Part shown: positions 24,728 to 26,202 of the stretch, in pieces | Layout of the letters: each line of letters opens with the position of its first letter | Numbering within the stretch: position 1 is the stretch's first letter | Notes under the pieces: generated by a model | Databases searched by the model: none | What the model was told of the DNA's origin: nothing | The model's input: only the letters and a program-made list of their open reading frames with translations | Position numbers and translations under genes: made by a program | Source: Chloroflexota bacterium | GTDB taxonomy: Bacteria; Chloroflexota; Limnocylindria; QHBO01 | Assembly (NCBI GenBank): GCA_025937535.1 | Contig: JAICRD010000001.1 | Location: 1 to 58,917, forward strand | DNA: 58,917 nt | Direction: 5' to 3'

Positions 24728-25435
24728 ATGCCCCTGCATGTCAGCCAGCACCCGCTGGTCGCCCACAAGCTGGCCATCCTGCGCGACAAGACCACGGAGC
24801 CGAAGAAGTTCCGCGAGCTGGTGCGCGAGCTGACCTGGCTCCTCGGGTATGAAGCCATGGCGGACCTGACCACCCGGCCGGTCCAGATCGAGACGCCGTT
24901 GGAGCCGATGACGGCGGCCAGCATGGAGCCGCGCGTCGGCCTGATCCCGATCCTCCGCGCCGGCCTCGGGATGGTCGACGCCATGCTCGAGCTGCTGCCG
25001 ACCTCGGAGGTCTGGCACATCGGCCTCTACCGCGACGAGCGGACGCTCAAGCCGGTCGAGTACTACAACAAGCTGCCCGATGCGGCGACCGTTCAGGTCT
25101 GCCTGGTGCTGGATCCGATGCTGGCCACGGGCGGTTCCGCCGCCGCGACGATCGACATCCTCAAGGCGTGGGGCGCTGCGCGCGTCAAGCAGGTGTCGCT
25201 GATCGCCGCCCCCGAGGGCGTCCGTACCCTGGGGGATGCGCACCCCGATGTCGACGTCCACGTTGCCGCGCTCGACTCTCACCTCAACGAGCGTGGATAT
25301 ATCGTGCCCGGGCTCGGCGACGCCGGCGATCGCCAGTTCGGCACTTTCGCGGGCCCTGGCTCGGAGCCGGGCCACGGTCCGGACGACGAGACCGCCGAGG
25401 TCGTCCGCCGCCTGCAACGCGATCTCGAGCGCTGA
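24728..25435 (+). CDS. upp: Uracil phosphoribosyltransferase
   Basis: Upp makes UMP from uracil and PRPP in pyrimidine salvage. The 235-residue protein has the PRPP loop [11 protein letters not shown], the flexible-loop segment [12 protein letters not shown] and the uracil-binding [12 protein letters not shown]. It is about 25 residues longer than typical (about 208), with a charged C-terminal tail after the last motif. The start is fixed by homology and by the -10 element 8 bases upstream. Its 3' flank holds a potential structured RNA. Confidence 0.95.
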
Positions 25436-25450
25436 TCTCGCCGCGGAGCA

Positions 25451-25539
25451 GCAGCCAACGCGCACAAAGAAATGTCCCGAAGGAACCGCCTTCGGACCAT
25501 TGATGCAATCGCTGGTGCCGTTGGCTGCCCCTTCGGGAC
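25451..25539. ncRNA. Candidate structured RNA with alternative helices
   Basis: Helix A pairs GCAGCCAACG (25451-25460) with CGTTGGCTGC (25519-25528), a perfect 10 bp. Helix B pairs GTCCCGAAGG (25474-25483) with CCTTCGGGAC (25530-25539), also a perfect 10 bp. The inner CCGAAGG (25477-25483) can instead pair with CCTTCGG (25489-25495). A and B cross, so they form a pseudoknot or alternate. Strand is unknown because inverted repeats read equally both ways. It does not match tmRNA, RNase P or SRP RNA features I know. It lies in the 257-base gap after upp. Confidence 0.4.
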
Positions 25540-25612
25540 GACCAGAGCATATGGGCCGCCGAGCGGGGCGCGCAATCCCCCTTCTCCACGACCTTGTGTG
25601 TCGTACGCCCGC

Positions 25613-25632
25613 TTATCCACACGTTATCCACA
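25613..25632 (+). other. Tandem perfect DnaA boxes
   Basis: Two exact TTATCCACA nonamers at 25613-25621 and 25624-25632 are separated by CG, an 11-base repeat period that puts both on the same DNA face. A third weak match (TTCTCCACG, 7 of 9) is at 25582-25590. Two adjacent perfect boxes are very unlikely by chance in high-GC DNA. No dnaA or dnaN gene is in the window, so this may be a DnaA-regulated promoter, a titration site or an origin part. Confidence 0.7.
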
Positions 25633-25680
25633 GTCGTGGACATCTTCCGGGCCGGAACGACAGAGGCCCGAGGGCGCTGA

Positions 25681-25686
25681 TAGTCT
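25681..25686 (+). promoter_or_regulatory. -10 hexamer TAGTCT for the NUDIX-ABC operon
   Basis: TAGTCT ends 6 bases before the GTG at 25693. The DnaA boxes end 48 bases upstream of it, within reach for promoter control. Confidence 0.45.
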
Positions 25687-25692
25687 GCGGCC

Positions 25693-26202
25693 GTGAGCCG
25701 GACCGTTCCCGCCTGTCCTCACTGCGCAGCCGCGGATGAGCAGCCACTGGTATGCGACCGCTGCGGCTGGCGCTGGTACGCCAATCCGAAGCCCGCCGCG
25801 GCCGTCCTGCTGGAGCGCCCGGCCCATGACGCGGGCGAGCCCGAGATCCTGCTGCTGAGGCGGGCCGTCGAGCCCGGCCGCGGCGCGTGGGACCTGCCGG
25901 CGGGGTATCTCGATCCGGGCGAGTCGTTCGAGATGGCCGCCCGTCGCGAAACGCTCGAGGAATCGGGCATCGAGGTCGAGCTGCTCGGCCTCGTCGGCGT
26001 CTACCATTCGCCGCCGGCCAATGCGGTGACGGCGGTGTTCCGCGCGAAGCCCACGCACACGGACGCGTCGGTCACGCTCGACTTCGAGTCCAGCGATCAC
26101 GCCTGGGTCGCGCGTTCCGACGTCCCAGACTGGCTCCCGCGGCTGGCATTCGCGTCCATGTCGGCTGCGGTATCCGACTGGGCGTCCCGGGCCGAACGAT
26201 GA
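25693..26202 (+). CDS. Zinc-ribbon NUDIX hydrolase
   Basis: The 169-residue protein has an N-terminal zinc ribbon (CPHC and CDRC) and a complete Nudix box, G-x5-E-x7-RE-x2-EE-x-G, in the segment starting GYLDPGE. The arrangement resembles NUDIX pyrophosphatases of the NudC/YjhB type acting on nucleotide derivatives; the exact substrate is unknown. The GTG start is supported by a -10 element 6 bases upstream. It overlaps the next ABC gene by ATGA. Confidence 0.9.
   Translation: MSRTVPACPHCAAADEQPLVCDRCGWRWYANPKPAAAVLLERPAHDAGEPEILLLRRAVEPGRGAWDLPAGYLDPGESFEMAARRETLEESGIEVELLGLVGVYHSPPANAVTAVFRAKPTHTDASVTLDFESSDHAWVARSDVPDWLPRLAFASMSAAVSDWASRAER

Follow-up and report, generated by a model that had tools for sequence, protein, structure and literature searches.

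DnaA is known mainly as the initiator of replication and as a regulator of protein genes. The E. coli protein favours pairs of boxes 2–3 bp apart, with wider spacing leading to weaker binding, and tandem boxes spaced in this way lie near promoters at nrdA, mioC and in the purH region, where DnaA is the candidate regulator (PMC11317965). A second type of site, represented by datA, DARS1 and DARS2 of the same organism, consists of intergenic clusters with three core DnaA boxes (PMC5742627). Small RNAs tied to cell-cycle control have been described as well, namely EcpR1 in Sinorhizobium (PMC4414408) and CcnA in Caulobacter (PMC8959179). The locus considered here lies within a 58,917-nt stretch of a Chloroflexota genome ("the window") and has features of each. 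As in the E. coli double-box promoters, a tandem pair sits near a promoter, but the product is a small structured RNA with several paralogous copies, and beside the −35 element there is a third box at a constant distance of 31 bp. Unlike those of datA and DARS, the boxes have a fixed relation to a promoter and an RNA gene, are in direct orientation and occur in several copies. The direction of control would differ too: EcpR1 and CcnA have cell-cycle regulators as their targets, whereas at this locus the RNA would be the target of the initiator (a comparison by description and Rfam scan). A literature search found no DnaA-regulated small RNA; a looser search returned EcpR1 and CcnA, neither matching the element. 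We consider it probable that the boxes form a control array upstream of a minus-strand gene for a small RNA, and that this gene is part of a DnaA-controlled small-RNA regulon.

Two exact TTATCCACA boxes occupy positions 25613-25621 and 25624-25632 on the plus strand, separated by 2 bp. The first-pass annotation had reported this pair together with a weaker third nonamer, and a check of the sequence bears out all three at 25582-25632 (Table 1). It was also right that the window lacks dnaA, the genome's own copy being divided between contigs C177 and C140. By an order-1 Markov estimate, 0.022 exact boxes and 4e-9 tandem pairs would be expected in the window. In the corresponding assembly (2.15 Mb, 253 contigs, 83% complete), exact boxes number six and the exact pair occurs once. 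More decisive than chance odds, however, is recurrence: in relatives, each copy of a conserved RNA element is preceded by the box array.

Table 1. Coordinates of the box array, the candidate small RNA gene and the flanking genes in the window.
Feature	Sequence	Position	Strand	Remarks
upp, uracil phosphoribosyltransferase		24749..25435	+	PF14681, E=2e-73; convergent with RNA gene
U-rich tail 3′ of hairpin, intrinsic-terminator-like		25466..25473	-	tail kept in copies
Small RNA, long imperfect hairpin		25474..25539	-	P1 arms 25539-25527 and 25486-25474
Apical motif, conserved	GAU-NNN-AUCAA	25500..25510	-	GAU...AUC core almost invariant, 65 copies
−10 element	TATGCT	25546..25551	-	mean 1.18 bits per position (43 copies)
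−35 element	TTGCGC	25570..25575	-	18-bp spacer to −10; 1.03 bits per position vs 0.15 in spacer
Box I	TTCTCCACG	25582-25590	+	−51 from RNA start, directly upstream of −35; box here in 44/44 f1 copies
Box II	TTATCCACA	25613-25621	+	−82 from RNA start; box I 31 bp away
Box III	TTATCCACA	25624-25632	+	−93 from RNA start; box II 2 bp away
Inverted fourth box	CGTGGACAT (ATGTCCACG on minus strand)	25635-25643	-	mostly in upp-adjoining copies
NUDIX hydrolase gene		25693..26202	+	PF00293, E=1e-18; divergent from RNA gene

To which gene do these boxes belong? Read along the minus strand, the window presents the boxes, a sigma-70-type promoter (TTGCGC-N18-TATGCT), a rod-like hairpin RNA of ~66 nt and a U-rich, terminator-like tail. 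Thus ordered, the boxes appear to control a small RNA gene that had not been described before and that lies on the strand opposite to the neighbouring genes' own. Aligned copies repeat this order on the minus strand: box III, box II, ~22 variable bases, box I and the −35 element (TTGC..) are followed by 17–18 bp, the −10 element (TATNCT), 6 bp and a hairpin that begins GUCCCGAAGGGGC and ends CCUUCGGGAC, then AUUUCGUU. Both hexamers are conserved and the tail is terminator-like, as expected of an RNA gene; the minus strand has two terminator-like sites here, which overlap, against 0.1 expected. A strict consensus promoter scan did not call the −35/−10 pair of the window, whose match to the consensus is only moderate; in copies of a second family (f2), the −35 element is usually TTGAC. 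The fold z-score of the window RNA is −5.8, single-sequence values across copies ranging from −4 to −6. Covariance model R1 matches the minus strand at 25462-25551 with 103.5 bits, and the model score falls from 103 bits on this strand to 29 bits on the plus strand. Two G.U pairs in P1 are conserved in 64 and 54 of 65 copies and would turn into A.C on the opposite strand, which assigns the RNA to the minus strand. Although the region folds in the plus-strand direction too, that reading was rejected, since RNA model and G.U pairs alike point to the minus strand; a plus-strand pseudoknot, at first suspected by eye, was dropped. The element bears a superficial likeness to SRP RNA.

When the upp–NUDIX intergenic region (25436-25692) was searched against the GTDB family of the window (f1), 21 of the 22 genomes matched, often in multiple copies. 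Searches with covariance models R1 and R2 placed the RNA in all 22 f1 genomes and in ~100 genomes of f2 (most of that family, which belongs to the same class), plus a weak match under R1 in one f5 genome; for the class as a whole, the count is 122 of 177 genomes. Among 400 genomes drawn across the phylum, matches fell in f1 and f2, with three marginal ones outside the class. The class of f1 and f2 is probably Ca. Limnocylindria, with f2 probably corresponding to CSP1-4 and f3 to Limnocylindraceae (PMC13212565, PMC10608941). All listed f3 genomes (1-Mb) lack the RNA, consistent with loss during genome reduction.

Covariation lends further support to the structure. In an alignment of 65 copies (A3, which was fitted to the model and is hence biased toward the named structure), 96.8% of pair cells are standard, eight pairs show two-sided changes, and 88 cells carry such changes as compared to 27 in shuffles and far fewer in slid controls; compensatory changes in both P1 and P2 exceed the shuffled and the slid controls. 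The f2 copies have diverged in sequence and retain promoter, boxes and structure. In some copies there is an additional hairpin or the apical module is doubled, and three of them (L069, L084, L128) carry GAU-NNN-AUCAA two times, which looks like a duplication. Within the window's own assembly, contigs C204, C163 and C89 (L076, L077, L078) begin or end inside a near-identical class-C copy into which a long hairpin is inserted; this suggests that the repeat is recent or that the assembly duplicated it. Rfam likewise comprises small structured bacterial RNAs, Chloroflexi-1 included, but in a covariance scan no family reached its gathering score, and even with E values of up to 10 none matched credibly. 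As judged from these comparisons, an RNA gene is well supported, and its hairpin product would represent a new family missing from Rfam.

Well-assembled f1 genomes usually contain four copies (A–D), each at its own conserved locus. Copy A adjoins upp in convergent orientation, a mannosyltransferase-like gene converges on copy B in two of the genomes checked, copy C is convergent with an AAA_33 ATPase gene, and copy D lies 3′ of a CbiQ-type transporter gene on the same strand in three genomes. The copies appear to be vertically inherited in this Chloroflexota group, and all retain the phased box array. A mobile element or part of a phage was considered and dismissed: the copies sit at conserved orthologous loci, and there was no phage match.

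The first-pass annotation had named control of the plus-strand NUDIX-ABC operon as one possible role of the boxes, and they do lie 60–110 bp upstream of the NUDIX start. The NUDIX gene, however, adjoins copy A in some genomes only, its place being taken elsewhere by a phosphatase/ArsC-like gene (recognised by sequence alone). Because the boxes are kept next to this other neighbour and at three loci with unrelated neighbours, control of the operon as their main role is unsupported; they track the RNA. That they are a cis-regulatory element of the operon, or chance boxes in front of it, therefore strikes us as very improbable, given that the element persists without NUDIX and recurs at unrelated loci, and that chance is excluded by their presence in 44 of 44 f1 copies and by the Markov estimate. 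A side effect on the divergent NUDIX promoter is possible. The related proposal of cell-cycle control via DnaA survives in spirit, with the qualification that the target would be the small RNA on the opposite strand and not a nucleotide-processing operon.

Box geometry varies little. All 44 f1 copies have boxes near −51 and −82, which are 31 bp apart in 42 copies and 32 bp apart in the remaining two; box III follows at the 2-bp gap in about half of the copies, being weak in the other half. Information per position amounts to 1.0–1.6 bits in the boxes and ~1.1 bits in the hexamers, as opposed to 0.15–0.35 bits in the two main spacers, the one between the boxes reaching 0.35. Spacers that keep their length but not their sequence are characteristic of protein sites kept in phase with the helix. 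Spacing is looser in f2 (30–32 bp), and some f2 copies are without a clear second box. At the sequence level, then, candidate cooperative boxes occur at a fixed place relative to the promoter, as would be expected of a DnaA-controlled promoter. A double-box search of 22 genomes returned ~9 distinct places, eight of nine at RNA copies; the sole place without an RNA copy is a triple DnaA-type array in one of these genomes (G014:C185:54227-54257, L286). A general promoter element of stable RNAs was also considered and rejected, such boxes occurring at only one of 30 tRNA genes in one relative.

Three phased boxes, present in several copies per chromosome at fixed loci, might alternatively serve mainly to titrate or reactivate DnaA in the manner of datA or DARS, which in E. 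coli are likewise intergenic box clusters, with RNA transcription being secondary. We deem this quite improbable, since the array keeps a constant distance from a promoter that is conserved and an RNA that covaries, an arrangement for which a pure sink would have no need. Titration could possibly accompany control of the RNA as a side effect of the array.

Which protein might read the array? A PF08299 search identified DnaA as the only protein with the DnaA DNA-binding domain, with one in nearly every genome, and the DnaA proteins concerned carry the canonical GGRDHSTVLHA helix. A paralogous DnaA-like regulator was rejected on the same grounds (one protein in nearly all genomes; G018: plus one short fragment). 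Moreover, the dnaA-dnaN regions, that on the window genome's contig C140 included, carry boxes of the same type as the array. Box I deviates from the classical box in that its last position is usually G or C, not A, and position 7 is often C for A. This consistent departure (TTATCCCCG or TTCTCCACG) and the near confinement of the array to these RNA promoters would suit a genuine RNA gene whose dedicated transcription factor is not DnaA but another protein that recognises a TTATCCACA-like site. Such a factor seems unlikely to us: boxes II and III agree both with the DnaA consensus and with the boxes at oriC in these genomes, E. coli DnaA favours just such a 2-bp gap between tandem boxes, and further exact boxes adjoin ftsZ and parAB. 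Judging from sequence, DnaA probably binds the array.

Three of the genome's six exact boxes belong to the promoters of RNA copies A and B; of the others, one precedes ftsZ, one precedes parAB and one separates a second parAB from a tRNA-Met gene. The first of these (C143, 1501-1509; L006) is joined by a second near-box in the ftsA-ftsZ intergenic region. The parAB box (C172, 1501-1509; L007), also exact, is located ~85 bp upstream of parA and retained in G016 (L293:4925), with no strict box in G004 or G008. The third (C79, 2333-2341; L012) is accompanied by TTGTCCACC and retained in G004 (L221), that is, in two genera.

The presence of DnaA boxes had also raised the prospect of a replication origin, or part of one, at this site. 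This we consider next to negligible: box-rich dnaA-dnaN regions, the classical oriC position, exist elsewhere (again including contig C140), there are several arrays per genome, and the orthologous site is ~210–245 kb from dnaA in three relatives. The site does not lie between dnaA and dnaN, and GC skew, computed over the window, shows no sharp switch.

How could such an array operate? The RNA family, its strand, the conservation of its promoter, the box geometry and the conserved loci are established here by comparing sequences, and the recurrence of the array at RNA copies suggests that the replication initiator switches on a small-RNA set of its own. DnaA would bind boxes II and III, spaced by 2 bp, as a cooperative dimer and would also occupy box I by the −35 element, three helical turns away on the same face of the DNA; RNA transcription would then be switched in step with the DnaA level or its ATP/ADP state. 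With box I directly upstream of the −35 element, activation by DnaA appears somewhat likelier than repression. The RNA itself likely acts in trans, perhaps via its apical loop or 3′ tail. For the full chain, in which DnaA, through a fixed 11+31-bp array, controls four paralogous hairpin RNAs that relay a cell-cycle signal to post-transcriptional targets, we regard the chances as evenly balanced.

The here-described element adds an RNA family that Rfam is missing. If its control by DnaA holds true, replication timing in these bacteria would be connected to RNA-level control by a route of its own, and the RNA family would offer a means of reading DnaA activity in a class for which mostly uncultured genomes are known.
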